Source of the DNA: an uncultured Eubacterium sp. | GTDB lineage: Bacteria > Bacillota > Clostridia > Lachnospirales > Lachnospiraceae | Length of the DNA stretch: 64,000 nt | Direction of reading: 5' to 3' | Assembly: GCA_947089855.1 (NCBI GenBank) | Contig: CAMUML010000008.1 | Span: forward strand, 31,540-95,539 | Shown: one piece after another, positions 30,895 through 49,446 of the stretch | How the letters are laid out: every line of letters starts with the position of its first letter | Position numbering within the stretch: the first letter of the stretch is position 1 | The notes under the pieces: model-generated | Database searches by the model: none | Told to the model about the DNA's origin: nothing | Seen by the model: the letters and a program-made list of their open reading frames with translations, nothing else | Made by a program: the position numbers and the translations under genes

Positions 30895-30959
30895 GGCAGA
30901 AACGCGAAAAGGCCGGTATGCGTAACAGTTCAATGGGTGGGCAAAAGGAGGAGGCCAGA

Positions 30960-31703
30960 ATGAATAAAATAAAGAAGGTGGCAGCAGCCATACTATGTTT
31001 TACGATTGCCCTGGGCGGGTTATCCAACCAGGCATTTGCAGAAGAAACCAAGTGGGATATTGAAAATACGCTGGATATATCCGACTGTAAACAAGGAAGC
31101 ACCGTTACCATGTCCGTAACCCTAAAAGGCAGCGGCACCGCCGCCGATAAACCACAGGAAATAGCATCCATAAACGGTACGCTGGAATATGACAACAGCC
31201 TGTTTACCGTAGAAAAAGCAGACATCCTGCCAGTAGAAAGCGGCAAAGCACAGAATTGGTCTTTTGACAAGGAAACCGGTACGTTTCACATCCAGTACGC
31301 ATCCAGCATTACCGTACCAAACGACGGGATGCTGCTGCAGATCAAGCTCCACACCGCAGCAGATGCTACGACCGGAAAGACTACACTTTGCGTTACACAG
31401 CTCAAATGGGGCAATGCTGCAGGCCAGGAAACGGAAGTCGAACACCGTGTACCAGCCCGGATTACCATTGCCCAGGCCCAGGAAGAGCCAGAACCAGGAA
31501 CCCAGACAGCCACAGGGGACGTCAACCTGGACGGCAAGGTCAACCTGACAGACGCAAAGCTGGTCATGCAGTATTATAACGGCGCCAAAACGCTGGATAC
31601 CCAGCAGTTGAAAAATGCAGATGTCAACGGGGACGGCAAAGCCAACCTGACAGATGCAAAAATGATTATGAGATATTACAATGGGGAAGTAGCTGGGTTT
31701 TAG
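30960..31703 (+). CDS. Secreted cohesin-like plus type I dockerin protein
   Basis: 247 aa from the ATG at 30960 (SD AGGAGGAGG; an upstream in-frame ATG at 30918 adds a hydrophilic stretch and is unlikely). Signal peptide to ~26 (SNQAFA). Residues ~27-165 resemble a cohesin-like/carbohydrate-binding-module-like sandwich (INGTLEYDNSLFTVEKADIL). Residues ~187-245 are a clear dockerin: two Ca-binding F-hand repeats GDVNLDGKVNLTDAKLVMQY and ADVNGDGKANLTDAKMIMRY, both with complete D-x-N-x-D-G ligands. Dockerins dock onto cohesins; the anchored cohesin-like protein at 25171 is the obvious candidate partner (inference). No catalytic domain is present, so it would act as an adaptor or binding subunit rather than an enzyme. 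Confidence 0.85.
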   Translation: MNKIKKVAAAILCFTIALGGLSNQAFAEETKWDIENTLDISDCKQGSTVTMSVTLKGSGTAADKPQEIASINGTLEYDNSLFTVEKADILPVESGKAQNWSFDKETGTFHIQYASSITVPNDGMLLQIKLHTAADATTGKTTLCVTQLKWGNAAGQETEVEHRVPARITIAQAQEEPEPGTQTATGDVNLDGKVNLTDAKLVMQYYNGAKTLDTQQLKNADVNGDGKANLTDAKMIMRYYNGEVAGF

Positions 31704-35386: not shown

Positions 35387-35491
35387 TTATACTGCACACC
35401 AGTTAAATTTACAGTATATCCTGACTGCGGACCGCCGGCCAGGCACTTTCTTGGTTAACATTACTGTATATTCTGGCGGTTTGCAGTATAA
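35387..35491. mobile_element. ~105-bp MITE-like insertion in the transposase gene
   Basis: The ends are imperfect inverted repeats: TTATACTGCACACC at 35387 and GGTTTGCAGTATAA ending at 35491 (13 of 14 complementary). Removing it restores the usual family sequence YNVL-KKCVSISILDF and one reading frame if a 2-bp target duplication (TA) is also removed. No coding capacity. Confidence 0.65.
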
Positions 35492-35889
35492 CACGTTGTA
35501 TTTTTGGCCTTTGCTGGCCTGGTCCGTATATATTTTGGATAGGTAGAACAAAGCCCGGTCGGCCCACACTTTTAATTTTGCCAGCTGGATTTCGGTATCG
35601 ACCTGCGTGCCGTCGTCCAAAAGTACCCTTACGTCAAGGATGCCAAGCTTATCCTCCTCATGGAATTTACGCAGGCAGGGGTTTAGGATACGGGTCTTTC
35701 GAATGCTTGACGGGTCGAGGTGCAGGACAGCGGACAGGAAGCCCGTGCGTGCAGTTTCATCTTCCATGATTTCTTTAAAGGCAAAGTCTATTTTCGGTTT
35801 CATGATAAAAGTATCCATAAAAAGGAACCTTCTTTCAAACTTCCCAGGTTTACGAAAAAGTTTCTATTATTTGTTCCGGTTTTTGTTTT

Positions 35890-36105: not shown

Positions 36106-36132
36106 TATCAAAGAGTAACCTACTCTGCGATA
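36106..36132 (+). repeat. Left recombinase-flanking site (imperfect palindrome)
   Basis: TATCAAAGAGTA-ACC-TACTCTGCGATA: two 12-nt arms around a 3-nt centre. 22 bases (36112-36133) are identical, in inverted orientation, to 37520-37541 beyond the recombinase gene. The surrounding 35819-36327 gap (509 bases) is AT-rich and otherwise shows no gene; 36134-36250 is especially AT-rich and could hold a promoter, though I could not fix one. Confidence 0.6.
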
Positions 36133-36327
36133 AAAATAACCTGCAAAAACTATAATTATTTTACAAAATATTCATAATTTTGTCAATTCATATTTATAAA
36201 AAACCAAAAAACCAGTATTTTTTAATATGTATCAATAATGTAGTTTGGATTTAACACCAGTTTTTTGCGCGTTTGCAGGCAACGCAACTGCATTTCGCGT
36301 CAAAAGACTGGTCAGAGGAGGAAAGAT

Positions 36328-37470
36328 ATGCCGCGTAAAGGAGAAAATATTTATAAACGCAAGGATGGACGGTGGGAATTGCGGTTGATCAGCTTTTATG
36401 ACGAGGCTGGCAGGGCACATTATAAGTCATATTATGCGCCGAGTTATAAGGAGGCACGGCAGAAAAAGGCAGAATTGCTCAAGGCTGGCTGGCAGTCCGG
36501 TACAAAACCAGAAAAAAATAAAGAGACATTTAAAGCAATATGCCTACAGTGGCTAGGGCATGTCAGGCCGCTCGTAAAGGAATCTTCTTATGTAAAATAC
36601 CAGTATGCGGTGACAGTGCATATTATACCGGCATTGGGGGACTGGCAGCTATGCGGGATAGACACCCCTAGGATGGAAACGTTTTTCAATGCCCTTTTAA
36701 CCGGGGCGGATACGGCAGGCTGCGGGCTGTCCCCCAAAAGCGTTGCGGATATAAAGTCCATTGTCAGGCAGATTTTTGCGTATGCCGAGTCAAAGGGGCT
36801 GCCTGCAGGGTGCAATATTGAACATATCCGTATCAAGCAGGAGCAAAAACATATCCGTGTCTTGTCGTGTGAGGAACAGGCAATATTGGAAAACTACCTG
36901 CTAAAAGGGGATTCGTATGTCTGTTTCGGCATTTACTTGTGCCTATATTCCGGGATGCGCCTGGGTGAAATATGTGCGTTGCGTTGGGGCGATATTGACT
37001 TGGAGGCAGGTACGGTTTGGGTAGATAAGACGATGCAGCGCATCCGGGATGAGGAGCATACATCTGGAAAGAAAACAAAAGTTGTGGTGACAACAGCGAA
37101 AAGTGCATGCTCCATCCGCAGCATCCCACTGCCTGGGTTTTTGCACGACAAGATAAAACGGATGAAGCTTCCATGCCAGGACAATGCCTATGTCCTAACT
37201 GGTTCAGGTACTAGGTATATGGAGCCGCGCGCTTTGGAGTACCATTTTAAAAAGATTACCGCGGAATGTAAGATTGCAGATTTTAATTTTCATGGGCTGC
37301 GGCATACGTTTGCAACCAGGTGTGTGGAGCTTGGATTTGATATTAAAACGTTGAGCGAGATATTAGGGCATGCAAATGTCAATATTACGCTGAACCGTTA
37401 CGTGCATCCGTCGATGGAGCTAAAGCGGTCAAATATGGAACGGCTGGGCCGGATAACTGCCGTCAGGTGA
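36328..37470 (+). CDS. Tyrosine site-specific recombinase (phage-integrase family)
   Basis: 380 aa from the ATG at 36328, with SD AGAGGAGGAAAGAT (upstream in-frame starts lack one). The N-terminal ~55 residues are an arm-type DNA-binding/AP2-like segment (GENIYKRKDGRWELRLISFYDEAGR), ~60-160 a SAM-like core-binding domain, and ~195-380 the catalytic domain. All catalytic residues are present: Arg211 (SGMRLGE), Lys258, His322 and Arg325 (HGLRHTFA), His348 (LGHANV), and nucleophile Tyr358 (NRYVHP). It therefore should be active. It stands alone, with no excisionase, phage or conjugation genes, and is flanked by inverted copies of a 22-nt sequence, unlike an integrated element with direct att repeats. 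It is 193 bases upstream of the Tad operon start. Confidence 0.9.
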   Translation: MPRKGENIYKRKDGRWELRLISFYDEAGRAHYKSYYAPSYKEARQKKAELLKAGWQSGTKPEKNKETFKAICLQWLGHVRPLVKESSYVKYQYAVTVHIIPALGDWQLCGIDTPRMETFFNALLTGADTAGCGLSPKSVADIKSIVRQIFAYAESKGLPAGCNIEHIRIKQEQKHIRVLSCEEQAILENYLLKGDSYVCFGIYLCLYSGMRLGEICALRWGDIDLEAGTVWVDKTMQRIRDEEHTSGKKTKVVVTTAKSACSIRSIPLPGFLHDKIKRMKLPCQDNAYVLTGSGTRYMEPRALEYHFKKITAECKIADFNFHGLRHTFATRCVELGFDIKTLSEILGHANVNITLNRYVHPSMELKRSNMERLGRITAVR

Positions 37471-37516
37471 CCTGGTCTGTGTTGGGTTTCCTTTGGGTTT
37501 TCCTGGGGCTTTTGGG

Positions 37517-37551
37517 CCATTATCGCAGAGTAGGTTACTCTGCGATAATGG
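37517..37551 (+). repeat. Right recombinase-flanking site / terminator hairpin
   Basis: A perfect palindrome: 16-nt arms CCATTATCGCAGAGTA and complement around GGT, then CATTTTATTT. As RNA it is a strong stem with T-rich tail, so it may end recombinase transcription. As DNA it carries the same 22-nt sequence as the left site in opposite orientation (centre GGT versus ACC). Confidence 0.7.
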
Positions 37552-37644
37552 CATTTTATTTCTGTGGAGTATATGCTTTTATTTGAAAAATATGTATTTA
37601 TTTAAATAGTCAGAAACACTTCTGGAAAAGTGCTGGTGGATATT

Positions 37645-37663: not shown

Positions 37664-38734
37664 ATGAAAATTAAACTTGCTGTATTTATGTCGGATAAAA
37701 CGTATTTGTCCAGGTTTACAGATATGGTTACGGTGCAGTATGCAGACAAAATAGAGCTATCCGTATTTACGCAGGCAGAAGGTGCAGCTGAAATCATTGC
37801 AAAAAGCAGGCCGGACATTGTGCTAGCAGAACAGGCGTTTTTAGAACAGCTGCCTGTGGGGTCCAGTACCAGTGAATTGGTATGTTTTACGGATCAAAAA
37901 GGCGTCAGGGAGTGGAATGGATACCAGGCGATCTGTAAATACCAGAAGCTGTCAGACATTTACCGGAATATTGCCGCCATTTATGCAGCAAAAATTGAAG
38001 CGGAAGCAATGGTGCTCAAGGGGGATGCTGAAAGCAAAAAGATCATTACCTTTTTTTCCGGGGCAGGCGGCGTAGGCGCTTCCACTGCAGCAGCAGCTTA
38101 TGCATACCGCCTGGCGGAACAAGGGGAGCAGGTGCTTTATTTAAATTTGGAACAGGCAGGGGCAGCGGATCTGTTTTTTTCTGCCGGAGGGGAAGACGAT
38201 TTTGGAAAGGTGATCTATTCGCTGGCTATGGCGGCCGGATCCCCTGCGGTGCGGATGGAAAGTGCATTGCGCCAGGATGCAAGCGGAGTTTATTTTTATG
38301 CGGCCTGTCCGTCGGCGCTGGATATGGCAGAACTTAGCCAGGATATGATGGAACGGATGTTTGAACAGCTTAGTGTCCTGTCGTTGTTCCGATGGATCAT
38401 TGTAGATATGGATTTTCAGCTTGACACTAGGACGTATATGCAGATAGAGCGGTCGTATGCAGTATTTTTTGTTTCGGACGGCAGCGATATGGCGAATGCA
38501 AAGCTGAAACGGAAACTGGATGCCCTGGAAATCATGGCACAGCAACGGGAAAAGATGCTGCTGAACCGTATTTTTATCCTTTATAACCGTTTCAGCAGCA
38601 AAAGCGGAAAGAAGCTGCAGGGCAGTGCGTTTAAAGAAATTGGCGGCATCCACCGGTTTGCAGATGCGGGGGCAGGGGATTTGCTAAAGCTTTTGGCACA
38701 AAGTGAAGTGTTCCAGGAGATACAGCAATGCTGA
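37664..38734 (+). CDS. tadZ: TadZ/CpaE-like pilus-assembly ATPase
   Basis: 356 aa from the ATG at 37664. Residues ~1-115 form a receiver-like N-terminal domain (KIKLAVFMSDKTYLSRFTDM...SRPDIVLAEQ) without an obvious phospho-acceptor. Residues ~125-350 resemble the ParA/MinD fold used by TadZ/CpaE to place the pilus machine at a cell site. The P-loop reads SGAGGVGASTAAAAYAY: the deviant Walker-A lysine (KGGVGK) is replaced, so ATP hydrolysis may be weak or absent, as reported for some TadZ proteins. The Walker-B-like IIVDMDFQLD is present. It is first in the Tad gene run; the tadA-like gene starts 15 bases after its stop. The identity rests on fold features and position rather than strong motifs. 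Confidence 0.8.
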   Translation: MKIKLAVFMSDKTYLSRFTDMVTVQYADKIELSVFTQAEGAAEIIAKSRPDIVLAEQAFLEQLPVGSSTSELVCFTDQKGVREWNGYQAICKYQKLSDIYRNIAAIYAAKIEAEAMVLKGDAESKKIITFFSGAGGVGASTAAAAYAYRLAEQGEQVLYLNLEQAGAADLFFSAGGEDDFGKVIYSLAMAAGSPAVRMESALRQDASGVYFYAACPSALDMAELSQDMMERMFEQLSVLSLFRWIIVDMDFQLDTRTYMQIERSYAVFFVSDGSDMANAKLKRKLDALEIMAQQREKMLLNRIFILYNRFSSKSGKKLQGSAFKEIGGIHRFADAGAGDLLKLLAQSEVFQEIQQC

Positions 38735-38749
38735 AGCGGGGTACTTGTT

Positions 38750-39988
38750 ATGACAAAGGAAGAAGAAAAGAAGCTGATTGACGAAGTGCGGCAGTTTATT
38801 GTGGAATCCTGCCCACTGAGCCAGCTGTCGGACGATGAGCTGGAAGGCCGTATTGAAGCGGCGGTTACCAAAAAGCTGAATGGCCGTTATTGTGCGATCA
38901 GCCAGAAAGTCAGTATTGCGCAACAGGTATATAGTGCCATCCGCGGCCTTGGGATTTTAGACAGTATTTTAAAAGATAATTCTATTACAGAAGTTATGAT
39001 CAATGGTCCTGGCCATATTTTTGTAGAGCGAAACGGAAAGGTGCAAAGGATTGAGGAAACGTTTGAAAACGAAAAACGGCTGGAGGATATTATCCAGCGT
39101 ATTGTAGGGACAGCAGGGCGGGAAGTCAACCAGTCCAGCCCGATCGTGGATGCACGGCTGGAAGACGGATCCAGGGTCAATGTAGTGCTGCCGCCAATTT
39201 CCCTTGTTGGGCCAGTTGTTACGATCCGTAAATTTTCGAAAACGCCAATGACGGTTGGGCAGTTGATAAAATATGGTTCGATTACCGAAAAGATCGCGGA
39301 TGTCCTGCGCATCTTGGTAGAGGCAAAGTACAATATTTTTATTGCAGGCGGTACAGGTTCCGGAAAAACCACGTTTTTAAATGCACTTTCCAATTTTATA
39401 CCGAAAGACGAACGCATTATTACAATTGAGGATTCTGCGGAACTTCAAATTGCTAATATCGCTAATTTAGTCAGCTTGGAGACAAGGAATGCGAACAGTG
39501 CAGGAGTTGGGCAGGTTTCCATGCGGGATTTAATTAAGGCGTCGCTGCGTATGCGGCCGGAACGTATTATTGTGGGCGAAGTGCGTGGTGGGGAAGCGTT
39601 GGATATGCTGCAGGCTATGAATACGGGCCATGACGGTTCCTTATCAACCGGGCATGCAAATTCAACAGCAGATATGTTAAGCCGTCTGGAAACAATGGTG
39701 CTGCAGGGGTCTTCCGGGATGCCGCTTGCAGCGATACAGATGCAGATCGCATCGGCGCTTGACATTATTATCCATCTTTCACGTTTGCGCGACCATACCA
39801 GAAAGACGATGGCGATCACAGAAGTACTGGATGTGCAGAATGGGCAGATTCAATTAAACCCCCTTTATCTTTTTGAAGAAGATGCATCCAGTACGTTGGA
39901 ACATGTATCAGGTGAATTAAAACGCACTGCAAACCCAATGAAAAATACATATAAACTGCGTTTATCAGGATACCGGGCTGAAATTTAA
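38750..39988 (+). CDS. tadA: TadA/CpaF-type secretion ATPase
   Basis: 412 aa, the usual length. It is the hexameric motor that powers extension (and often retraction) of Tad pili at the cytoplasmic face. An N-terminal helical domain (~1-95) is followed by the N2-type region with SITEVMINGPGHIFVERNGK and DGSRVNVVLPPISLVGP, Walker A GGTGSGKTT (Lys206), Asp box ITIEDSAELQ, Walker B IIVGEVRGGEALDMLQAMNTGHDGS, and the His box STGHANS. All catalytic features are intact. The ATG at 38750 has a weak SD (GGGG), as expected for a translationally coupled gene 15 bases after the previous stop. It is the most strongly supported member of the pilus locus. Confidence 0.94.
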   Translation: MTKEEEKKLIDEVRQFIVESCPLSQLSDDELEGRIEAAVTKKLNGRYCAISQKVSIAQQVYSAIRGLGILDSILKDNSITEVMINGPGHIFVERNGKVQRIEETFENEKRLEDIIQRIVGTAGREVNQSSPIVDARLEDGSRVNVVLPPISLVGPVVTIRKFSKTPMTVGQLIKYGSITEKIADVLRILVEAKYNIFIAGGTGSGKTTFLNALSNFIPKDERIITIEDSAELQIANIANLVSLETRNANSAGVGQVSMRDLIKASLRMRPERIIVGEVRGGEALDMLQAMNTGHDGSLSTGHANSTADMLSRLETMVLQGSSGMPLAAIQMQIASALDIIIHLSRLRDHTRKTMAITEVLDVQNGQIQLNPLYLFEEDASSTLEHVSGELKRTANPMKNTYKLRLSGYRAEI

Positions 39989-40025: not shown

Positions 40026-40724
40026 ATGGCAGGGCAAAATAGCGGCTTTGATTTTGCGGTTCCAGGGGAGGAGGAAGCATCTGGGCAGGATATGGTATCA
40101 ATGCCTGCCCAGGAAGCGCCACCCACCAGGCAGGTATCGCTGCTTTGGTTGCTGCAGCACTACAATAAAGAAAATGCTGCGGCTTATAAATTGCAGCGGG
40201 CAAGGAAAAAAGCGGAAAAGCAAGGCCAAAAATCTGGTAAAAAAGCCGTCAGGCAAGGAAAAAAGGAACCTGAAGTACCTGATGCCGACGGGCCTGTTGA
40301 TCCTGCGTCGGCCTCTGGTGCAGCTCCAGCCAGCCGGGGGCAGCGTGTACCGGCAAAGGCCGATAATTTTGGGGAAACTGTCTATATTGAAAGGGACAGC
40401 AGGCCCGGGCTTGTGGGCAGCCAGGCGTTGGTTCAGGCGTCTTTGGAATGTATTGGGTACGGACAAACCGTTGCCCTGGCAAAAGTGCCGTTTTTGATTG
40501 GCCGGAGCAAACAGGGGGTTGATTTATGCATTGCAGATAATAAAACGGTTGGCCGGACGCATGCCGTTATTACCTTCCGTTGCGGACAATACTGCATTAC
40601 TGATTTAAAATCACTAAACCATGTCTATATAGATGGGGTGCCGGTAGAACCAGAAGTAGAAACGCCGATCCACGACGGATGCAGGATTGCATTGGGAAAT
40701 GAAGAGTTTATTTTCCATTTGTAA
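40026..40724 (+). CDS. FHA-domain protein of the Tad locus
   Basis: 232 aa; ATG after AAAGGAGTGTAAAATAA. Residues 1-60 are variable, ~55-80 is a Lys/Arg/Gln-rich helix (AYKLQRARKKAEKQGQKSGKK), and ~115-125 holds GETVYIE, a short acidic Thr motif like the phospho-switch in front of FHA domains of GarA-type proteins. Residues ~145-232 are the FHA domain with LIGRSKQGVDL, GRTHAVITF and LNHVYIDGVPV. No membrane segment, so cytosolic. FHA binds phosphothreonine, possibly its own N-terminal motif or that of the kinase at 51022. Its place between the ATPase and the platform genes suggests phosphorylation-controlled assembly (inference). Confidence 0.82.
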   Translation: MAGQNSGFDFAVPGEEEASGQDMVSMPAQEAPPTRQVSLLWLLQHYNKENAAAYKLQRARKKAEKQGQKSGKKAVRQGKKEPEVPDADGPVDPASASGAAPASRGQRVPAKADNFGETVYIERDSRPGLVGSQALVQASLECIGYGQTVALAKVPFLIGRSKQGVDLCIADNKTVGRTHAVITFRCGQYCITDLKSLNHVYIDGVPVEPEVETPIHDGCRIALGNEEFIFHL

Positions 40725-40782
40725 ACCGGGTGCAAGCAGCATTTGTATTTATAGAAAATTTGTACTTAGAAAGGGATTATTG

Positions 40783-41910
40783 TTGGGTCAAATAAAATTA
40801 GTTTCCATCGCAAACCGGACATTTTTTACATATACCTTATCACCAGACGAAGTATTAGACCAGGCCACATTAGGGATGTTGGAAAATAATATAATTTGTG
40901 GCCTGCTGCCAGTCCATTTCCTGCAAAAAGACGACCAGCGGATTTTAAAATACGATATTACCCAGATGCTGGCTTTTGCAGATTTCCTGCAAGGGGACAG
41001 GGATGGGATGAAGCTGGTGCTGGCTTTCAAGAGTATGGCAGATGCAATTTTAGATGCGCAGGAATATATGATAGAAGAACGCTCGTTTTTGTTTGGGATG
41101 GATACGGTTTATATAGGGCAGGATGGAACCGGGCAGTTGGTATGCCTTCCGGTGGAAAAAAAGCAGGGTGAAGGGTTTGCACAGTTTTGTATGCAGACCG
41201 TACAGCAGCAGGCAGTTGCACGGCATTTAAAAAACGGGCCGTTGGCATCGATTTATACGTATTTGTGCGGCAAAGCATTTTCTGTCAAAGAGTTTTCCAG
41301 CCTGTTAGGCCAGGTGGAACTCCAATCGGCGATCGCCCCAGGCCAGTCGGCCAAGCAGGGAAGCCAGCCTGTGGAACCAGTTATCCTTTCTGGGCGCAAA
41401 CAAACAGGGGCAAAAAAACAGGAGCCAGTAATTTTATCGGGCAAGGGATTAAAAAACCGGCAAAATATACAAGATCCTGTTGGCCACAGGGATGGGAAGC
41501 CGGCCAAAAAGCAAAAGCCGCAGGGGCCGGTGATCCTGTCTGGCAGCGGGCGTGTACAGCAGCCTTTGCCAAAAGGGCAGGAAACCAGGCAGGGTTCGGC
41601 AGGCGCAGGCCAGGCGCAGGGGTGTTTGTACCGGGTTGCTACGAGGGAAAAAATAGCAGTCACAAAGGCTGTATTCCGGATTGGCAAGAGCAGGGAAGGG
41701 AATGATGCCTGTATTCAAGGCAATCATTCTGTTAGCAGGCACCATGCGGTTATTATCCAGCAGGAAGGCTATTTTTATATCGTGGATACCGGTTCGTTAA
41801 ACCATACTTATATTGGCGGGAAAAGGATCCCTGTCAAACAGCCGGTGCCGCTGTCCAATGGGATGAAGATTAGCCTGTCTGACGAAAAATTTATATTTTT
41901 AACGGAATAG
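40783..41910 (+). CDS. DUF6382-type plus FHA-domain protein
   Basis: 375 aa, starting at TTG 40783, 7 bases after AAGGG; longer in-frame starts overlap the previous gene and have no SD. Residues ~1-175 match the N-terminal module I recall as DUF6382 (FFTYTLSPDE, LEYDITQML-like YDITQMLAFADFLQ, SFLFGMDTVYIGQDGTGQLVCLPV), which usually precedes an FHA domain in Firmicutes. A basic, Gly-rich linker (~180-285) carries three PVILSG motifs. Residues ~290-375 are an FHA domain (FRIGKSREGNDACI, SRHHAVIIQ, LNHTYIGGKRI) with the full S-R-x-H core, so phosphothreonine binding is likely. A cytosolic partner of the pilus machine is inferred from context. Confidence 0.8.
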   Translation: MGQIKLVSIANRTFFTYTLSPDEVLDQATLGMLENNIICGLLPVHFLQKDDQRILKYDITQMLAFADFLQGDRDGMKLVLAFKSMADAILDAQEYMIEERSFLFGMDTVYIGQDGTGQLVCLPVEKKQGEGFAQFCMQTVQQQAVARHLKNGPLASIYTYLCGKAFSVKEFSSLLGQVELQSAIAPGQSAKQGSQPVEPVILSGRKQTGAKKQEPVILSGKGLKNRQNIQDPVGHRDGKPAKKQKPQGPVILSGSGRVQQPLPKGQETRQGSAGAGQAQGCLYRVATREKIAVTKAVFRIGKSREGNDACIQGNHSVSRHHAVIIQQEGYFYIVDTGSLNHTYIGGKRIPVKQPVPLSNGMKISLSDEKFIFLTE

Positions 41911-41921
41911 GGGGGAACTGG

Positions 41922-42806
41922 TTGAAAGGGCAAGGGAAAAAGGCAGAGGCAGCAAAGGGTAAGGAAAAAAAGGGGAAGGAGCCGCAGTATTTAAAAACGC
42001 ACTCGGGTATGATAATGCTAAATTACCGGGTCTATCATATGGGAATTTTAGAAAAAGCCTTTTATTTTCTATTGGCATTTGCGGCAGGGGCTTTTGTAGG
42101 CTACCTGTTTTATGGGGGAGTTGGTGCAGATGAATTTGGGGATCCAACCCAATTTACCTATATATGGAATGCAGTAGTTATGGCAGGGGCTGGGATGGCT
42201 GCGGGGGTAGCATTCCTTCCGATCCGGACACAGCAGCTGCGGGTAGCCAGGCAGGATAAACTAAAAAGGCAGTTCCGGGATATGCTGGAAGCAGTGACGA
42301 CATCCTTGGGGGCAGGAAAAAATGTGCCAGAATCTTTTGCAGCCGCTTTTGAGGATTTGCAAAACCAGTATGAAGAAGGCGCTTATATTCTGCATGAATT
42401 AAAGGCCATCAACGTTGGCTTGGCGAATAATATCAATATAGAAGCGCTGCTGGCAGATTTTGGGGCAAGGAGCGGCTGCGAGGATGTTGCTGATTTTGCA
42501 AATGTATTTGAGATCTGCTTCCGAAAGGGTGGGAATATAAAAGAAACCGTGCGCATTACCTATGAAATTATCAGTGACAAAATGAATGTATTGGAAGAAG
42601 TAGAAACCATCGTTGCCGGAAGCAAATCCCAGCAGATGCTGATGCTGTTTATGCCAATTATTTTAATTGCACTGATCAAACTGTCCAGTGCGGAATTTGC
42701 GGCAAATTTTACGACGCCAGCAGGGCTTTTGGCTACAACGGCCGGGGCAGCGACCTTTATTTTGTCCTATTTCGTTGGCAGGCGGGTATTGGATATTAAA
42801 GTATAA
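41922..42806 (+). CDS. tadB: TadB-like inner-membrane platform protein
   Basis: 294 aa from TTG 41922, with GGGGGG 5 bases upstream; the start lies 11 bases after the previous stop. A basic, Lys-rich cytosolic head (1-30) is followed by two membrane helices (~45-66 and ~80-100), the T2SS-F cytoplasmic domain (~115-235; LKRQFRDMLEAVTTSLGAGKNVPESF and FEICFRKGGNIKETV are typical), and two C-terminal helices (~240-262 and ~270-287). With TadC it forms the membrane platform on which the TadA motor acts and pilin is inserted. Normal length for Gram-positive TadB. Confidence 0.88.
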   Translation: MKGQGKKAEAAKGKEKKGKEPQYLKTHSGMIMLNYRVYHMGILEKAFYFLLAFAAGAFVGYLFYGGVGADEFGDPTQFTYIWNAVVMAGAGMAAGVAFLPIRTQQLRVARQDKLKRQFRDMLEAVTTSLGAGKNVPESFAAAFEDLQNQYEEGAYILHELKAINVGLANNINIEALLADFGARSGCEDVADFANVFEICFRKGGNIKETVRITYEIISDKMNVLEEVETIVAGSKSQQMLMLFMPIILIALIKLSSAEFAANFTTPAGLLATTAGAATFILSYFVGRRVLDIKV

Positions 42807-42819
42807 GGAGGGGGCAGTT

Positions 42820-43698
42820 TTGCAGATGGTTTATCCGGCTGATTGGGCCGTACTGGGGTTTGGCGCTGCCGTATTGGCCGTATGGCTGGTGCTGTATGTA
42901 AAGGGCCGCAAATATGCCAGCCTGTTTGACCGGCTGCCTGCGCAAGACTATCCGATGAAAGAACTCTATTTTGTCGGATATGCGCTGCTAAAAGTGGTCA
43001 AGAAAAGCTACAAATCAGCAAAAGACCGGACAAGGCGCAAGCAGCTGGCAGTATTGTACCAGGAAAAATACGCAGAATACTACCTGCGTGCCGTGTATTG
43101 CAAACAGGCTACAATGGCACTGCTGGTACTGGCATTTGCAGCGCCGATGTACTGTATTGCGGAAGGTTCTGTTTTAATGTTTTTTGTAGTAGTAGCAGGC
43201 GCAGGCGGAACGTATTACTATTATGGAGAGACAACCGTATCCAAAATAGAACAAAGGGGGCAGGAGCTATTGTCCGCTTTCCCAAATGTAACGTCAAAAC
43301 TCGCGTTATTGATCAATTCCGGCATGATCTTGCGGGAAGCATGGGAACGGGCGGCAGGGTCAGGAGATGGCCCCCTATACCGGGAAATGCGCGCCAGCAT
43401 CGTACAAATGCGCAACGGGTGGCCAGAAGCTGATGCACTATTCGCATTTGGCCAGCGCTGCATGGTTCCGGAAATTAAAAAATTTACCTCTACTTTGATA
43501 CAGGGGGCAACCAAAGGGAATCAAGAGCTTGCAGCCATGCTGGCCCGCCAGAGCAAAGAAGTATGGGAGTTAAAAAAACAAATGGTACGCAGGCAGGGCG
43601 AAATGGCTAACAATAAGCTGATGATCCCAATTTTTCTTACATTTATCGGTATATTAATTATGGTCATAGTGCCGATCTTTTCCAATCTGGGTGCCTGA
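42820..43698 (+). CDS. tadC: TadC-like inner-membrane platform protein
   Basis: 292 aa. A TTG at 42820 is 5 bases after AGGAGGGGG; the ATG at 42826 is an alternative. First membrane helix at ~8-28 (VLGFGAAVLAVWLVLYV), two more at ~100-145, then the T2SS-F domain (ELLSAFPNVTSKLALLINSGMILREAWERAA; STLIQGATKGNQELAAML), and a last helix LMIPIFLTFIGILIMVIVPIF. Partner of the TadB-like protein encoded immediately upstream (14-base gap). The MANNKLMIPI block before the last helix is usual in TadC. No oddities. Confidence 0.88.
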   Translation: MQMVYPADWAVLGFGAAVLAVWLVLYVKGRKYASLFDRLPAQDYPMKELYFVGYALLKVVKKSYKSAKDRTRRKQLAVLYQEKYAEYYLRAVYCKQATMALLVLAFAAPMYCIAEGSVLMFFVVVAGAGGTYYYYGETTVSKIEQRGQELLSAFPNVTSKLALLINSGMILREAWERAAGSGDGPLYREMRASIVQMRNGWPEADALFAFGQRCMVPEIKKFTSTLIQGATKGNQELAAMLARQSKEVWELKKQMVRRQGEMANNKLMIPIFLTFIGILIMVIVPIFSNLGA

Positions 43699-43733
43699 CC
43701 ATAATGATATAAAAACAAAAAGGAGGATTCAAA

Positions 43734-43967
43734 ATGAATGAATTTATGACAATGGTGTATGTCAATCTGTTAATGTTGGGAAACCGGCTAAAAACCGGGA
43801 TGCAGGAGTTTTTGTATGATGAACAGGGGGATGTTAATATTGTTTCGATTGTAGTGCTGATGGGGATTGCAGTTTTATTAGCGATCCTTTTCAGAGAGCA
43901 GATTCAGTCTTTGCTTGAATCGTTATTTAGTACAATTAGCGGAAATGCAGAAAGTGCTGTTAGTTAA
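43734..43967 (+). CDS. flp: Flp1-like type IVb pilin (major pilin candidate)
   Basis: 77 aa; ATG after AAAGGAGGATTCAAA, the best SD in the locus. A leader of ~31 residues ends DEQG, followed by DVNIVSIVVLMGIAVLLAILF, a single hydrophobic helix, and a short Ser-rich tail. This matches Flp1-type pilins of Firmicutes, cut after Gly by the A24 peptidase encoded at 48790. The Glu at +5 of classical type IV pilins is absent, as is common in this subgroup. A hairpin with T-run 40 bases after the stop would let pilin mRNA outnumber downstream messages. Assignment as the main structural subunit is by size, position and leader. Confidence 0.82.
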   Translation: MNEFMTMVYVNLLMLGNRLKTGMQEFLYDEQGDVNIVSIVVLMGIAVLLAILFREQIQSLLESLFSTISGNAESAVS

Positions 43968-44005
43968 CGGTATAAAACAAAATAGGACAGCAAAACTGCT
44001 AGTTG

Positions 44006-44025
44006 GAAAGCTCCTGCTTTCTTTT
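44006..44025 (+). terminator. Short terminator or attenuator after the pilin gene
   Basis: GAAAGC-TCCT-GCTTTC followed by TTTT, ~40 bases past the flp stop. The 6-bp stem is weak, so partial read-through into the TadE-like gene is likely. The remaining 43968-44298 gap (331 bases) otherwise holds only a repeat fragment. Confidence 0.5.
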
Positions 44026-44175
44026 CTGGCAATATGCTGCTAAAGTACATTGCTTATTTAAGATAGAACGTGTTTGAAACTTCTGCGTAGTTGCTATTTG
44101 ATACAGAATACCATTAAAATACAGAACCGGAAAACCGTTCATGCAAGTGTAACGTTGCCCAATAACAGCCGTATC

Positions 44176-44240
44176 CAGAATGCTTAGAGGTACTTGTATT
44201 TTACAGCGGCATAGCAGGGACCTCACAGCATCTGGATCCG
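44176..44240 (-). repeat. One-arm fragment of the 220-bp palindromic repeat
   Basis: Aligns with the right arm of the copy at 63386-63643 (shared AGAATGCTTAGAGGTAC, ACAGCGG and TAGCAGGGA) and ends near CATCTGGAT. The other arm and both inner hairpins are missing, so it cannot fold as the full copies do. It lies between flp and the first TadE-like gene. Confidence 0.65.
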
Positions 44241-44298
44241 GCATTCAGGCGGCTACTTTGCCCAAACCACACTTTTCAACCATCCAAAAGGACAAAAA

Positions 44299-44946
44299 AT
44301 GAAGGAAAGAAAGAAACAGCAGGAATACGGAGCAGTCCTGATTCTGGAAGCAGTGTTTGTATTCCCAATTATGTTTATCATAGTATTAATTATGCTAATG
44401 GCAGGCGGGGCTTACTACCAGCATGCAAGGGTAGAGCGCCTTGTTATCGAGGCAGCATTGGACGGGGCATCCCAGTGTGAAAACCCAATGTTAAAAAAAG
44501 TCCAGGAAAACGGCAGCGTCCCTACCGGTACTTCTGATACACAAGTTATGCCCTACCGGTACTTATTTACTGGAAACGCCAGGGGAATAGGCGATACGGT
44601 AGAAAGTGAGCTGCGCAGGAAGGTAGAAGGGCTTACTTCCCTGGCTTTTAAGGGGATGGAGCCCCAAAATGTGTCAGTGGCTGTCAAACCCAAAATGTTT
44701 ATCCTGATGTCCAGTTTCCAGGTACAGTGTGAATTTGACATTGTGCTGCCTATCCGGATGATTTTTTCAGATGAAAATATAAAATTCCACTATGCAGTGC
44801 ATATTACCGAGCCAATTGGCGACCCGGCAGAATTTGTGCGCAATGTTTCTACGGTCCAGGATATTTTGGAACAAAACGAGACGGTTTCTAATTTTGCAGC
44901 CAAATTTAAAGAAGCGGCACAAGAGCTGGCTGAGTTTATCAATTAA
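44299..44946 (+). CDS. tadE: TadE-like minor pseudopilin 1
   Basis: 215 aa. A short basic head (MKERKKQQEYG) is followed by a hydrophobic helix AVLILEAVFVFPIMFIIVLIMLM with Glu near the +5 position, as in TadE/TadF pseudopilins, and a mainly extracellular ~180-residue domain. TadE-family proteins are processed by the prepilin peptidase and are needed for pilus initiation. No clear SD is seen just before the ATG (AAGGACAAAAA at best), so translation may be weak, fitting a minor subunit. The DUF5702-type gene follows within ~50 bases. Confidence 0.78.
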   Translation: MKERKKQQEYGAVLILEAVFVFPIMFIIVLIMLMAGGAYYQHARVERLVIEAALDGASQCENPMLKKVQENGSVPTGTSDTQVMPYRYLFTGNARGIGDTVESELRRKVEGLTSLAFKGMEPQNVSVAVKPKMFILMSSFQVQCEFDIVLPIRMIFSDENIKFHYAVHITEPIGDPAEFVRNVSTVQDILEQNETVSNFAAKFKEAAQELAEFIN

Positions 44947-44997
44947 GGCAAGGCAGCAAAAATAGGTATGGGATACAAAGGCGAAAGGGGCAGGAAG

Positions 44998-47900
44998 ATG
45001 GGGAGAGGAAAAAAGAAAAAGGGGCGCCGCGGGACAGTTTCCGTATTTTTGACCATAATTTTAGTACCATGCATTATTGTTACCTGCGCCTTCACCGACA
45101 TCAGCCGGGTGCAGTTAAGCAAAGCAGGGGCGTCTTCAGCGGCAGATCTGGCCTTATATTCGCTTATGGCAAACTACGATGTGGATTTAAAGGATTATTA
45201 CGGGCTGGTGGCTTCCTGCCAGGATATAGGCCAATATTACGATAAGGCCGCAACATATTTTACTGGTATGATGTCCGCGGGCGGCGTTTCCGGGGAAGGG
45301 AGCAGCCTTTTTACGGAGTATCTGCACTCATTGCGCACAGAAGGCGGCGTATCCGATTTTTTGAAAGTAAAGTTCCAGGAAGCGGCTGCAGTGGAACCTG
45401 CGGAACATGCGCAAATGGGGGAAAATGCGGCTTTACTGGAGGATGGAATTGTCGAATTTATGAAATATAGGGGCATAGCCTCCATTTTGAAAAAAGTAAT
45501 GGAACGTTTTAAGCATTTGGATTTAAGCGGTGCGTCGTCCAATGTAGATAAAGATGAACAAATAGTAGAAAAAAAACAAGAATATGTGGAAAAAGAAAGC
45601 ACCCTGCTGCGGGATGCATTGTACAGCTATCTGGCAGTCCACAAATATGAGCAGGCATGGCAGGCAGGGAACCCGGTAAAGGAAAAAGGGTATAGCGGGC
45701 TGGCACAGGATCTGTCCAATCTTTGGCAGGATCTGCAAAAGGCAGCAGAGCTGGCCGTTACTTATTATTTTGCAGATGCCGACCGCATCAGCCAGGTTGC
45801 ATTCCCAACTTATAACAGTGTCAACCAATACCATTATCAAAAAGAACAGGTTGGAATCCGCACCCGGCAGGATGGGAACGTTATTTACTGTATCGATGCC
45901 GACAAACTGGAGGAACTGCTTGACGGCATTGACGAAGCGGCGGATACTGCCCTGGAAGCAGCCGATTCTATCCAAACCCGGTTCCCGCAGTTTACACAAG
46001 GGGCAAACCCGGCTGTCTACTTGCTGGAAGTACAGGATTTGTTTGCGGGAGGCAATGAATGCCGCACGGTTTCTGACCAAATGAAAAAGCTGCTGAAGCG
46101 TTATGCAAAACTAAAGGCGGCGTTGCAATGCGAACCGCTGCCAGAAGACAGCGGGCTGCCAGATGATTGGAAAGGCCAGATACAGGATGCCTGCTCCAAG
46201 ATTAAGGAGGTGCAGAAGGTATTTTCCAACACTGGAAGCAGCGGATATATCACCAGCCTGCGCAGCTATCAGGCCTGTGTGGATACACATTTGTCAAAAA
46301 TAAAAAACAGGTCCTATGAATTTGCAAGCAGGTTTGCCGGAGGGAATGTAACGCTGCAGGCTTTTACTGCACAGATCGCAAGCAGGCTGCCAGAGCTAAG
46401 GAGTGAGCTGTCAGAGCTGATTGGTTTTTTGGATGTAGCGGCCACAGGCGGGAGGATAAAAGTAAATGGCAGAGACCAAATGGTCGTCCCTCTTGATGAC
46501 CTGGTTCAGCAGGCGATCCAATTTAGGAATGCCAGGGAGCAGTGGGGAGCTACAGCTGGGCGGTACCAGACAGATTATGCAAGGCAGGAGCAGGCAGCTT
46601 ACCGGGGAGAAGGCATAGACGATATAGAGCGGGAAAGCGAAGAAATGGCTATGAAGATTGACGGGGATGCAGCCAATGAATTAAAACAGAGGATTACAAA
46701 TATCCGCAATGATATGAAAGGGCTGCTCCAGGCACTGGATAACTTTACCTATGGCGGCCAGAAAGTAGAAACTGTACAAAGCGCCGATACCCTGATTTCC
46801 CTGACACGGACAAAAATGCCAGCACGTAGCAGCCGTTTGCTGGAGCAGAATGCGTCAGATGCCGCCGGGTATTTCCGTGCACTGATAGCACCTGGCACAC
46901 AAGAAGTGTACCGTGCCCCAGCATTAGACAACCGGAAAGAAGGCAACAATCCCGATCTAACCGTACATCCGCCTGGACTGTATGATTATTTTAAAAAGAA
47001 ATTTGAGGGGAAAGACCTGGATAAAATAGACGAAGAAACGCAAAAAAGCAAGCAGCAAGAGGAAGAACGTAAAGAACAGGCAAAAGAAGAAGCAGAGAAA
47101 CAACAAGGGGTAGACAATTCGATTTTAGAAGGCAAGGGGGAAAACATTACTGGCGGGCATGGCGGGCAAGCAGTTACCATAGGGTCGGCTATTTCCAGCA
47201 TTGCCCAGACCGTAGACAACCTGATTCACGGCCGTGCGGAGGAGCTGCGCGACCAGATTTATGTCTGTGAATATATTATGGATATGTTTAGCTATTCTTC
47301 CCTTTACAATGAAGCAAAGTATAAACAGGAGCAAAACCAAAGCCAAAACCAAAATCAAAGCGGGGATGGAGTGCAAACTTCCGACAGCAAGATCCTGTCT
47401 TTGACTAACCGTCAGATTTGTAAAGAAAATAATAAAGCGAATTTGGGGGAAGTGGAGTATATCTTGTATGGAAGCCCTTCGATTGATACAAACCTAAAGA
47501 AATCTTATGAAAATATTTTTCTGATACGGGAAACATTAAACTTGGTTTCTGGTTTTGTACTTTTTTACAATGGAAGCAATAATGAAACAGCGCGGTTGAT
47601 TGAGGCAACAGCAATTGCGACTGCTACGGCAACAGGGGGTGTTGTACCGGTTGCAGCTACAAAATGTGTATTGATCGGCGTGCTTGCTACTACGGAATCG
47701 GCTAAAGATTTAGAACGGCTAAAAAAAGGGCAGCCGGCCGTTTTCTATAAGACGTCGGATGAACAATGGGAGTGCGCTGTCCATAATTCTGGCGGCGGCA
47801 CAGGGCAAAACAGCCCGTCTGGTATGTATTACAGCGATTATATGTATCTATTCTTAATCGTGGGCCTGACATCCAATAGATATTCAGATATGCTGCTGCG

Positions 47901-48129
47901 TGTAGGGGATTTGGTTGAGGCAAATATGCAAAAATCCGGTGGCAGCAATGCGGGCTTTGATTTATCCAAGTCGGTTTGCTACTTTCATTTAAAAGCGATC
48001 CTTCAGGTGGAGCCGCTTATGCTGGCCCTGCCGATTGTCCGGTCGTATAATGGGGCAGATACTACAGGCGTACTGGAAAATTTAGACTGGTGTACTTATC
48101 AGGTGGATTTTTACCGGGGGTATTCCTAA
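44998..48129 (+). CDS. Large TadG-like (DUF5702-type) pilus-associated protein
   Basis: 1043 aa from ATG 44998 (AAAGGGG 7 bases upstream; an in-frame ATG at 44968 has a poorer SD). A Lys/Arg-rich head is followed by one helix, GTVSVFLTIILVPCIIVTCAF, and DISRVQLSKAGASSAADLALYSLMANYD, the N-terminal pattern of TadG-like/DUF5702 proteins. A very long extracellular region follows with mostly helical character: charged coiled-coil stretches at ~580-640 and a Gln/Glu/Lys-rich segment (~680-720, SKQQEEERKEQAKEEAEKQQ). A hydrophobic stretch near ~870-905 may be a second membrane segment. Classical TadG is about half this size. It could form a tip, anchor or stalk for the pilus; this is inferred only from its place between two TadE-like genes. 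Confidence 0.78.
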   Translation: MGRGKKKKGRRGTVSVFLTIILVPCIIVTCAFTDISRVQLSKAGASSAADLALYSLMANYDVDLKDYYGLVASCQDIGQYYDKAATYFTGMMSAGGVSGEGSSLFTEYLHSLRTEGGVSDFLKVKFQEAAAVEPAEHAQMGENAALLEDGIVEFMKYRGIASILKKVMERFKHLDLSGASSNVDKDEQIVEKKQEYVEKESTLLRDALYSYLAVHKYEQAWQAGNPVKEKGYSGLAQDLSNLWQDLQKAAELAVTYYFADADRISQVAFPTYNSVNQYHYQKEQVGIRTRQDGNVIYCIDADKLEELLDGIDEAADTALEAADSIQTRFPQFTQGANPAVYLLEVQDLFAGGNECRTVSDQMKKLLKRYAKLKAALQCEPLPEDSGLPDDWKGQIQDACSKIKEVQKVFSNTGSSGYITSLRSYQACVDTHLSKIKNRSYEFASRFAGGNVTLQAFTAQIASRLPELRSELSELIGFLDVAATGGRIKVNGRDQMVVPLDDLVQQAIQFRNAREQWGATAGRYQTDYARQEQAAYRGEGIDDIERESEEMAMKIDGDAANELKQRITNIRNDMKGLLQALDNFTYGGQKVETVQSADTLISLTRTKMPARSSRLLEQNASDAAGYFRALIAPGTQEVYRAPALDNRKEGNNPDLTVHPPGLYDYFKKKFEGKDLDKIDEETQKSKQQEEERKEQAKEEAEKQQGVDNSILEGKGENITGGHGGQAVTIGSAISSIAQTVDNLIHGRAEELRDQIYVCEYIMDMFSYSSLYNEAKYKQEQNQSQNQNQSGDGVQTSDSKILSLTNRQICKENNKANLGEVEYILYGSPSIDTNLKKSYENIFLIRETLNLVSGFVLFYNGSNNETARLIEATAIATATATGGVVPVAATKCVLIGVLATTESAKDLERLKKGQPAVFYKTSDEQWECAVHNSGGGTGQNSPSGMYYSDYMYLFLIVGLTSNRYSDMLLRVGDLVEANMQKSGGSNAGFDLSKSVCYFHLKAILQVEPLMLALPIVRSYNGADTTGVLENLDWCTYQVDFYRGYS

Positions 48130-48154
48130 TCATAGAAGCAAGGAGGCGGGGCAG

Positions 48155-48799
48155 ATGCTTGAACAGGGGCAGGACGGCAGGATATGCCAGAAAGCGGGGC
48201 AAAAGGGCGCACTTTACATAGAGGCGACCCTTTGCCTGAGTTTTTTCATGTTTACGATATTTACACTGCTGTCGGTAGTGCAGATAGCATATACGCAGTC
48301 CAGGGTAGCCGTTGCGATGGACAGTGCTGCAAAAGAACTTGCCGAATATACCCATGTCTATTATGCTACCGGGCTGGCACAGACATACAACACAGGGGAA
48401 GGCGCAAGTTCCAGGATCTTTAACAAGGTGGCAGAATTCCTGGGGGATTTGGGCGGAGATATAAGTGCAGTCCATAGCGATTTGGGGCAGTTTTTAACAC
48501 AGGCTGGCTCTGCTTTGGCTGGCGACAGCATTGCCCAATGGCTGCAGACCGCGGCAGGCAAATCGCTGGTAAAAATGTTGATGGAGAAAAACCTGGGGGA
48601 CGGCACGCCTGGTTCTGCGGAAACATTTATGAAACGGAACCATATTTTAAGCATGGATATGAATGGGTCAAAGTTTTTGGAAGGGGGAGACGCAGATGTG
48701 TTTATGCGGGTAAATTATGAGGTTCAAGTAGTGCGCCTTTTAAATTTAGATATAAAATTCCGTATGAGCCATTGTGCTTATGCAAAGGCATGGAAATAG
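48155..48799 (+). CDS. TadE-like minor pseudopilin 2
   Basis: 214 aa; ATG after AAGGAGGCGGGGCAG. The head has the processing-type Gly (QKGALYIEATLCLSFFMFTIFTLLSVV) with Glu at +5 relative to a cut after Gly, as in TadE/TadF, then a ~165-residue extracellular domain of low similarity to the first TadE-like protein. The stop overlaps the start of the peptidase gene by 10 bases, so the two are translationally coupled. Having two TadE-type subunits plus a TadG-like one is usual for Tad systems. Confidence 0.76.
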   Translation: MLEQGQDGRICQKAGQKGALYIEATLCLSFFMFTIFTLLSVVQIAYTQSRVAVAMDSAAKELAEYTHVYYATGLAQTYNTGEGASSRIFNKVAEFLGDLGGDISAVHSDLGQFLTQAGSALAGDSIAQWLQTAAGKSLVKMLMEKNLGDGTPGSAETFMKRNHILSMDMNGSKFLEGGDADVFMRVNYEVQVVRLLNLDIKFRMSHCAYAKAWK

Positions 48800-49446
48800 G
48801 GAAACAGTTTTTAGTGTCATTTGGGCTTTCAGGCTTTGCCTGTGCTGTAGGGGCTGTGTCCTTTTGGGTTGGCAGGCAGGAAATAGCAGACGGGCAGCCA
48901 GACGCATGGCCTAGGCACTGGATTGCGGGGATGTGCGTATGCAGCGTGGCTCTGGCAGTTTTTTGGGCCGTTTCCCGGCCAGCAGGATTTTTGGAAATGC
49001 TAAAGATCGTATTGATGGTTGAGGTGCTTTGGGCCTGTGCATGGACAGACTGGAAAGTGTATTTGATTCCTAATAAAGTCTTGCTTTGGAGTTTGGTTAT
49101 ACGTGCAGGCATTTTTGCAGTAGAAGCATTGGTGGAACCACAGGAAGTTTTCAATATGCTGGCCAGTGCCGTAGTGCCAGCGGCAGCGCTGCTGGCAGCG
49201 GGCCTGTTGTGCCGGCTGGTGGTTCCAAAGTCGGTCGGGTTTGGAGATTTAAAGCTATTTGTGGTTTTAGGGCTGTACCTTGGGGCAGCCTATACATGGA
49301 ATGCCATATTTTATACGCTGGCGGCATCGTTTGTTGCCTCGGTATATTTACTAGTTACTAAGCGGGCCTCACGGGCATCTGTAATACCATTTGCGCCGTT
49401 TTTGCTGATTGGCACGCTGGCAGCCGTTGTTTTAAGTGGAGGATAA
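48790..49446 (+). CDS. Type IV prepilin peptidase (A24 family, TadV/CpaA-like)
   Basis: 218 aa from the ATG at 48790, overlapping the previous stop. Membrane aspartyl protease that cuts prepilin leaders after Gly. Both catalytic aspartates are visible: Asp87 in CAWTDWKVYLIPN (family motif D-x(5)-IPN) and Asp153 in SVGFGDLKLF (GxGD). About six to seven membrane helices are predicted by hydrophobic stretches. It lacks the extra N-terminal methylase region of PilD, as expected for Tad-locus enzymes. Likely substrates in this window are Flp1 and the two TadE-like proteins. It ends the core pilus gene set; the next gene starts 12 bases on. Confidence 0.92.
   Translation: MEIGKQFLVSFGLSGFACAVGAVSFWVGRQEIADGQPDAWPRHWIAGMCVCSVALAVFWAVSRPAGFLEMLKIVLMVEVLWACAWTDWKVYLIPNKVLLWSLVIRAGIFAVEALVEPQEVFNMLASAVVPAAALLAAGLLCRLVVPKSVGFGDLKLFVVLGLYLGAAYTWNAIFYTLAASFVASVYLLVTKRASRASVIPFAPFLLIGTLAAVVLSGG

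Follow-up and report, generated by a model that had tools for sequence, protein, structure and literature searches.

Hin of Salmonella is a serine recombinase. Tyrosine recombinases require a matching overlap region for strand exchange, and overlaps in inverted orientation lead to inversion. In the portion of PMC5903667 that deals with such switches, the RecV switches of Clostridioides difficile (cwpV, flagellar and others) are segments of 154-230 bp, with RecV acting on several non-adjacent switches, and the fimbrial case of Providencia stuartii is a single putative segment of 844 bp, with imperfect repeats of 14 bp. Among the hCom2 invertons, as presented in part of PMC11892184, group 139 comprises 33 invertons, 32 of them from Clostridia, with flipping seen in reads; the group is tied to invertase group 35, a tyrosine recombinase/integrase, and has example repeats of 26 nt and, in another, 14 nt. 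The two group 139 examples given with coordinates in PMC11892184 span about 255 bp each, which is too short to hold a recombinase gene, so that the gene would lie near and not inside the segment.

Here we describe a locus in a window of 64,000 nucleotides, the whole stretch of DNA analysed, from an uncultured Eubacterium sp. of the Lachnospiraceae. The initial annotation had proposed that a lone tyrosine recombinase between inverted sites is an ON/OFF switch for a Tad pilus. We reach a similar reading with the opposite polarity: with a probability of roughly 0.77, the locus is a self-contained invertible promoter cassette whose flip would switch the Tad operon from OFF to ON. In the literature we found no description of an inverton linked to a Tad operon; a replication-slippage switch was met instead.

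The recombinase, its flanking sites and the Tad operon

The recombinase gene runs on the + strand from an ATG at 36328 to a stop at 37470 and encodes a 380-aa tyrosine recombinase with Pfam Phage_int_SAM_3 and Phage_integrase matches. The catalytic set is complete, as first annotated: R211, K258, H322, R325, H348 and Y358 are all present, and each is invariant in the 135-137 members that have a residue in that column (137 aligned). The closest solved structures by sequence, 6en0 and 6emy, whose chains are named Int protein and which we take to be the Tn1549 integrase, match weakly, with 49 bits over the catalytic domain.

The sequences at 36112-36133 and 37520-37541 are indeed identical in inverted orientation at 22 of 22 positions, and the slightly longer stretches 36106-36133 and 37520-37547 are 93% complementary over 28 nt. 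Their cores, AGAGTAACCTACTCT at 36112-36126 and AGAGTAGGTTACTCT at 37527-37541, have the 3-nt centres ACC and GGT that had been described. Judged from the family alignment presented below, the best reading of each site is 27 nt, with 10-nt arms around a 7-nt centre. The left site would occupy 36106..36132, with outer arm TATCAAAGAG, inner arm CTCTGCGATA and centre TAACCTA at 36116-36122, and the right site, inverted relative to the left, 37521..37547, with the same centre on the minus strand at 37531-37537 (7/7 match). The left outer arm differs from the right at two positions (AA for GC), and the left site may therefore be the weaker one. Between the sites, on which the recombinase presumably acts, there are only an AT-rich leader (36133..36327, about 195 nt) and the recombinase gene. 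We searched the host genome (4,075,467 bases, 101 contigs, 90% complete) for the site pattern. Exact AGAGTANNNTACTCT occurs at these two positions only, and the two copies with one mismatch found elsewhere equal the total for a reversed control pattern (2). Thus, the palindrome does not recur at unrelated terminators across the genome, a recurrence that the initial annotation had named as speaking against a switch.

Directly downstream, and on the same strand as the recombinase, which reads toward them as had been noted, the genes from 37664 onward form what, by its component set, is a Tad (Flp) pilus operon. Domain matches assign the first gene, the presumed target, to a TadZ-like protein (37664..38734, +) and the next to a TadA-type ATPase (38750..39988, +). 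The remainder (40026..49446, +) encodes two FHA proteins, a T2SSF protein, a Flp1-like pilin (43734-43967), a TadE/G-like protein with DUF5702 and, at the operon end, an A24 prepilin peptidase (48772-49446); the expected TadB (41922-42806) has no Pfam match and was assigned by place. On the other side of the cassette, a short PDDEXK_2 (Rpn-type) gene (35387..35818, -), matching the first 106 of 229 profile positions only, reads away from it. Just left of the cassette are also two large BspA-type leucine-rich-repeat proteins and a cohesin/dockerin protein (26947-30894, 30918-31703 and 31972-34896). The DNA left of the cassette found no match in 60 relatives.

Matched centres in a family of cassettes

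Relatives of the recombinase were collected from species genomes, viral contigs, and phage and plasmid records. At E<=1e-60, of 397 genomes sampled from the host's family, 69 contain a relative, the host among them. After removal of 12 duplicates (L006, L007, L008, L048-L052, L117, L136, L144 and L146), 121 loci remained, and in 86 of them an inverted site pair surrounds the recombinase. The left site typically ends 170-300 nt 5' of the start codon, and the right site starts about 50-180 nt 3' of the stop. Scored against the recombinase of the window, 87 loci reach 250 bits or more, and both sites were found in 60 of them (one or both in 76); the corresponding numbers for both sites are 3 of 9 between 200 and 250 bits, 2 of 13 between 150 and 200 bits and none of 5 below 150 bits.

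A profile alignment accommodated 76 of the 86 pairs and revealed conserved arms of the form TTTCGYAGAG ... CTCTRCGAAA, with the outer arms conserved at least as well as the inner ones. Within pairs, the left and right arm copies differ at many positions (up to 41 of 76 pairs at the outermost column), and the seven central positions show no left/right difference in any of the 76 pairs. Between loci, these same seven positions include the least conserved columns, down to 0.07 bits, with 62 distinct centres in 76 pairs. Centres that are most variable between loci yet matched within pairs are expected if strands are exchanged between the two sites of a pair. An inverted-match search, by which these pairs had been found, favours matching centres, and the analysis was therefore repeated with the centre masked, each site being located independently and the profile used for each locus being built from the others. 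Among the 117 of 121 loci so treated, all 61 with both sites above threshold showed inverted 7/7 identity of the centres and none showed direct identity; this result covers those 61, the other 56 having one or both sites below threshold. Centres of mispaired loci agreed in 0.8% of cases. A hold-out set of 38 loci (46 new candidates minus 8 duplicates) gave both sites in 19, with centres matching in inverted orientation in 19/19 and directly in none; here, too, the count covers the 19 loci in which both sites passed the threshold, and the remaining 19 had one or both below it. As the family loci are related to one another, these counts are only partly independent.

In a single genome, G180, there are four cassettes with recombinases 70-88% identical to one another and with the same left-site arms. 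Each of the four has a different centre, common only to its own partner site. A genome-wide search allowing up to two mismatches found eight sites, seven of them at the four cassettes, and none for the control pattern. The eighth (C3:97815-97841, locus L203) is an orphan with its own centre, TGGCGTA; within about 2 kb it has no recombinase and no partner with that centre. Other departures from the simple layout were seen at L103, where a second site pair with another centre lies 1.4 kb apart, upstream; at L108, where four right-hand sites form a 32-nt array, two of them with another centre; and at L080, where the left site lies 2.8 kb upstream and the segment would be about 4 kb.

Private matched centres are not needed by a protein-recognised sequence or a terminator and are needed by strand exchange across an overlap region. 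Given the established behaviour of tyrosine recombinases, centres that match in inverted orientation would imply inversion. The geometry proposed for the window, inversion and not excision with the recombinase inside the segment, is thus strongly supported by the family.

Promoter direction, genomic position and orientation

The best sigma-70-type promoter predicted in the region is TTGACA-17-TAAAAT (36158..36186, -; 11/12 match), which lies in the leader and at present faces out across the left site, toward the PDDEXK_2 gene and away from Tad. We compared the best sigma-70-type matches with dinucleotide shuffles in 83 cassettes, that is, the 86 paired loci minus L063 and L140 (weak pairs) and one short-leader locus. 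A promoter pointing outward through the left site was found at p<=0.05 in 63 of the 83, leaving 20 with no significant outward promoter; 49 of the 83 best outward matches contain an exact TTGACA, and in the 63 significant cassettes the -10 box lies a median of 28 nt inside the left site. Inward promoters toward the recombinase reached p<=0.05 in 8 of 83 (about 4 expected by chance), and promoters pointing outward through the right site in 2 of 83. The hold-out loci gave a lower rate with the same bias, 11/19 outward versus 1 inward.

At the other end of the window cassette, the right site is embedded in a predicted terminator-like hairpin (37516..37552, +) with a 17-bp stem and a 3-nt loop, followed by ATTTTATTTC. 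Terminator prediction called an intrinsic terminator at the right site, and no such call came up for the left site on either strand. The full stem exists in the present orientation only, and inversion would shorten it, from -33.4 to -24.5 kcal/mol over equal stretches. In the modelled inversion, the -10 box comes to lie 38 bp before the right-site centre and 168 bp before the tadZ ATG, which is 130 bp beyond that centre. As the outward promoter faces away from Tad and the right site lies within a hairpin, Tad is probably OFF as the cassette now stands and would be ON after a flip. Thus, the ON/OFF switch of the initial annotation retains its inverting geometry and its placement before Tad operons, and its polarity is probably wrong: flipping was said to turn any promoter inside the segment away from Tad, but the sole near-consensus promoter already faces away, and the promoter bias in most of the family and the 17-bp hairpin point the same way.

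We propose that the recombinase would bind the palindromic arms and exchange strands across the 7-bp centre, which has to match. Because the centres are inverted, a segment of about 1,415 bp (centre 36119 to centre 37534), recombinase gene included, would flip. In the present orientation, the promoter at the Tad-distal end would fire leftward and the recombinase transcript would run into the right-site hairpin, with Tad off or low; after inversion, the promoter would drive the Tad operon through the right site. Self-catalysed inversion, promoter activity and an effect on pili are what this scheme predicts from sequence.

Four cassettes precede Tad genes: that of the window and those at L035, L137 and L013. 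A search of the collected loci for TadZ and TadA found no Tad-linked cassettes beyond these. The recombinase at L035 is 50% and the TadA 62% identical to those of the window; at L013, a PP2C-type gene stands between cassette and Tad, with TadZ and a 68%-identical TadA farther along. The recombinase points toward Tad in all four. The outward promoter was scored in three, the L035 contig ending before the left site, and is significant in the window and L137 but not in L013. In the recombinase tree, the window and L035 group together (support 0.989), and L137 and L013 lie elsewhere; these three branches would fit three or more recruitments. Most cassettes have neighbours other than Tad, and these are diverse (126 families among 88 proteins scanned as right neighbours, 7 of which, at L009, L010, L011, L012, L018, L022 and L034, are really left neighbours), which suggests a general switch that some Tad operons acquired.

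Neighbour directions were called by longest ORF. Among 75 cassettes with both neighbours called, the flanking genes diverge in 31, both run with the recombinase in 34, both run against it in 8, and they converge in 2 (p=1e-7 against 25%, an assumed and not genome-derived expectation). At least one of the 8, L137, was miscalled (-/-); its right neighbour is tadZ on the + strand and its setting is truly divergent. The near-absence of convergent settings indicates that the cassettes are nearly always upstream of a gene. Of 42 cassettes in tandem settings (41 without L137), 34 have the promoter facing away from the downstream gene and 8 (7 without L137) have it facing that gene. Either OFF, as presumed here, is the state captured in most assemblies, or the switch follows a different logic; the same tandem bias would also appear if the direction of the recombinase, and not that of the promoter, mattered.

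Several other settings were noted. At L080, L083, L088, L094, L099, L100 and L102, a TnpB/Cas12f-like protein of about 435-455 aa apparently lies directly downstream (on both sides at L094), in downstream DNA that is similar across loci; Cas12f1-like_TNB was confirmed in L100 and L094, and a Cas12f profile in L100. An invertible promoter before a TnpB-like nuclease would be new. A NusG-type antiterminator-like gene (L185:2913-3674) downstream of one G180 cassette recalls the UpxY genes of Bacteroides, which sit behind invertible promoters. Long inverted copies lie outside both sites at L094 (left flank and 5175-5390; 266 nt) and L015 (1115-1280 and 2640-2805; 166 nt); these may be a gene start present twice, as would suit a switch that alternates between two versions of one gene. 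Distant recombinase relatives (31-33%) at L142, L145 and other megaplasmid loci of Enterococcus raffinosus/gilvus precede SecA2/SecY2 (L142) or WxL surface-protein (L145) operons, and some of these loci have inverted repeats of a different kind. One identical cassette (L047-L052 and L136) occurs in common flanking DNA in six genera, as labelled in the records, apparently within a larger mobile element, to which the ribosomal RNA methylase-type gene seen in two scanned neighbours presumably belongs.

The initial annotation had also suggested checking relatives for both orientations. Opposite orientations do occur beside one operon, and the host shows one only: its single assembly has no flipped junction on another contig. 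The right flank of L037 is collinear with the left flank of L041 over about 3.5 kb (pieces 73-88% identical), starting 112 and 119 nt from the site. Both cassettes have the centre TATCCCA, the operon includes a BTAD-type regulator, and L072 is oriented as L041. This looks like one orthologous cassette whose orientation differs between related species. The other flanks of L037 and L041 showed no likeness, and the two loci come from different species (68-73% DNA identity), so the evidence for inversion is comparative and not direct, and separate insertions in opposite orientations would give the same picture. A second opposite case, L089 versus L114 and L108, involves different centres. Altogether, 71 locus pairs with similar flanks comprise 48 in the same orientation, 20 opposite and 3 neither. 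There was no near-identical flipped pair among the nine viral contigs, and the same-context pairs of Enterococcus megaplasmids (L142/L146 and L143/L144) show one orientation, which argues against frequent flipping there.

Two further leads were discarded. An apparent flip between L007 and L098 was an artefact of locus mis-orientation. Contig breaks were examined as a sign of mixed orientation in 80 loci: 7 of 20 upstream ends fall 90-350 nt 5' of the gene (p=0.0002), and only 1 of 13 downstream ends falls 0-260 nt 3' of it (p=0.58). This asymmetry fits AT-rich dropout as well as inversion, and the breaks were therefore not used.

Rival readings and relation to known systems

If the cassette inverts but Tad is now driven by read-through from the recombinase's own promoter, a flip would turn it OFF. 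The common direction of recombinase and Tad in all four Tad-linked cassettes, and a recombinase that points at the downstream gene in 34 of 42 tandem loci, would suit this arrangement; however, inward promoters are few (8/83, with about 4 expected by chance), strong promoters ending at the right site are fewer still (2/83), and in the present orientation the 17-bp hairpin stands between recombinase and Tad. We therefore regard read-through as unlikely. The palindromes might instead be the terminal inverted repeats of a small transposing element, either insertion-sequence-like or a stripped Tn916/Tn1549-type element, of which inversion is not the function. Such mobility would explain the very diverse neighbours, the several copies in some genomes and the occurrence on plasmids and phage-like contigs, and would agree with the Int protein structures being the closest solved ones. 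Yet the centres are identical and inverted in every two-site pair, which forbids simple excision and is not target duplication; the outer arms, moreover, are conserved as well as or better than the inner, and positions between convergent genes are nearly avoided. No empty site was found either: beside the Tad operon of the relative G009, no old site is recognisable, and its TadZ (71%) has another gene, a 311-aa ORF, directly upstream. We consider this origin improbable.

A cassette that once inverted and is now locked in the host, by its altered left outer arm or by selection, would account for the two arm differences at the left site and the single orientation in the assembly. The recombinase nevertheless retains all catalytic residues, the centres are still identical, and many relatives with matching centres have more arm differences, which makes a relict a rather poor prospect. 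It seems scarcely credible that an ordinary integrase is flanked by palindromes that serve only as bidirectional terminators or regulator sites: the right site does score as an intrinsic terminator, but the left was not called as one, the genome holds just two exact copies, and terminators do not need matched, inverted, private centres. The invertible promoter cassette therefore remains our preferred reading of the window locus.

For the family as a whole, we see evenly balanced odds that it is a portable promoter switch of gut Clostridia in which each cassette would come with a recombinase and an outward promoter of its own and with a private, barcode-like centre; several cassettes with the same arms could then flip independently within one genome, and the switch would have been plugged in at least three times before Tad and also before surface proteins, a NusG-type antiterminator and TnpB/Cas12f-like genes. 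The window locus offers a directly testable ON/OFF switch for Tad pili, and the family would represent widespread self-contained invertible promoters. With private 7-nt centres that match within each pair, the cassettes look like naturally orthogonal recombination switches, which would make them interesting both as genetic tools and for gut ecology. If the family reading is true, the joint change of both centres and the movement of the cassettes would be new biology. Short-read inverton callers, if tuned to short segments, could miss this class of about 1.4 kb.

Like the C. difficile switches, as far as these are covered in the cited portion of PMC5903667, the window cassette pairs short inverted repeats with a tyrosine recombinase and stands before genes for surface structures, motility or signalling; unlike them, it carries the recombinase inside its own segment of about 1.4 kb and has a private site centre. 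Group 139 and invertase group 35, as described in part of PMC11892184, may represent a neighbouring or the same enzyme family. With Salmonella Hin and the P. stuartii segment, as outlined in PMC5903667, the window cassette shares a recombinase inside a segment thought to invert beside flagellar or fimbrial genes, and it differs from the P. stuartii segment in belonging to a portable family in Clostridia. The Tn1549/Tn916-type integrases are its closest solved relatives by sequence, though at a weak 49 bits; in contrast to a Tn1549/Tn916-type element, the segment contains no further gene, and its family has inverted matching centres, with direct centres in 0/61.
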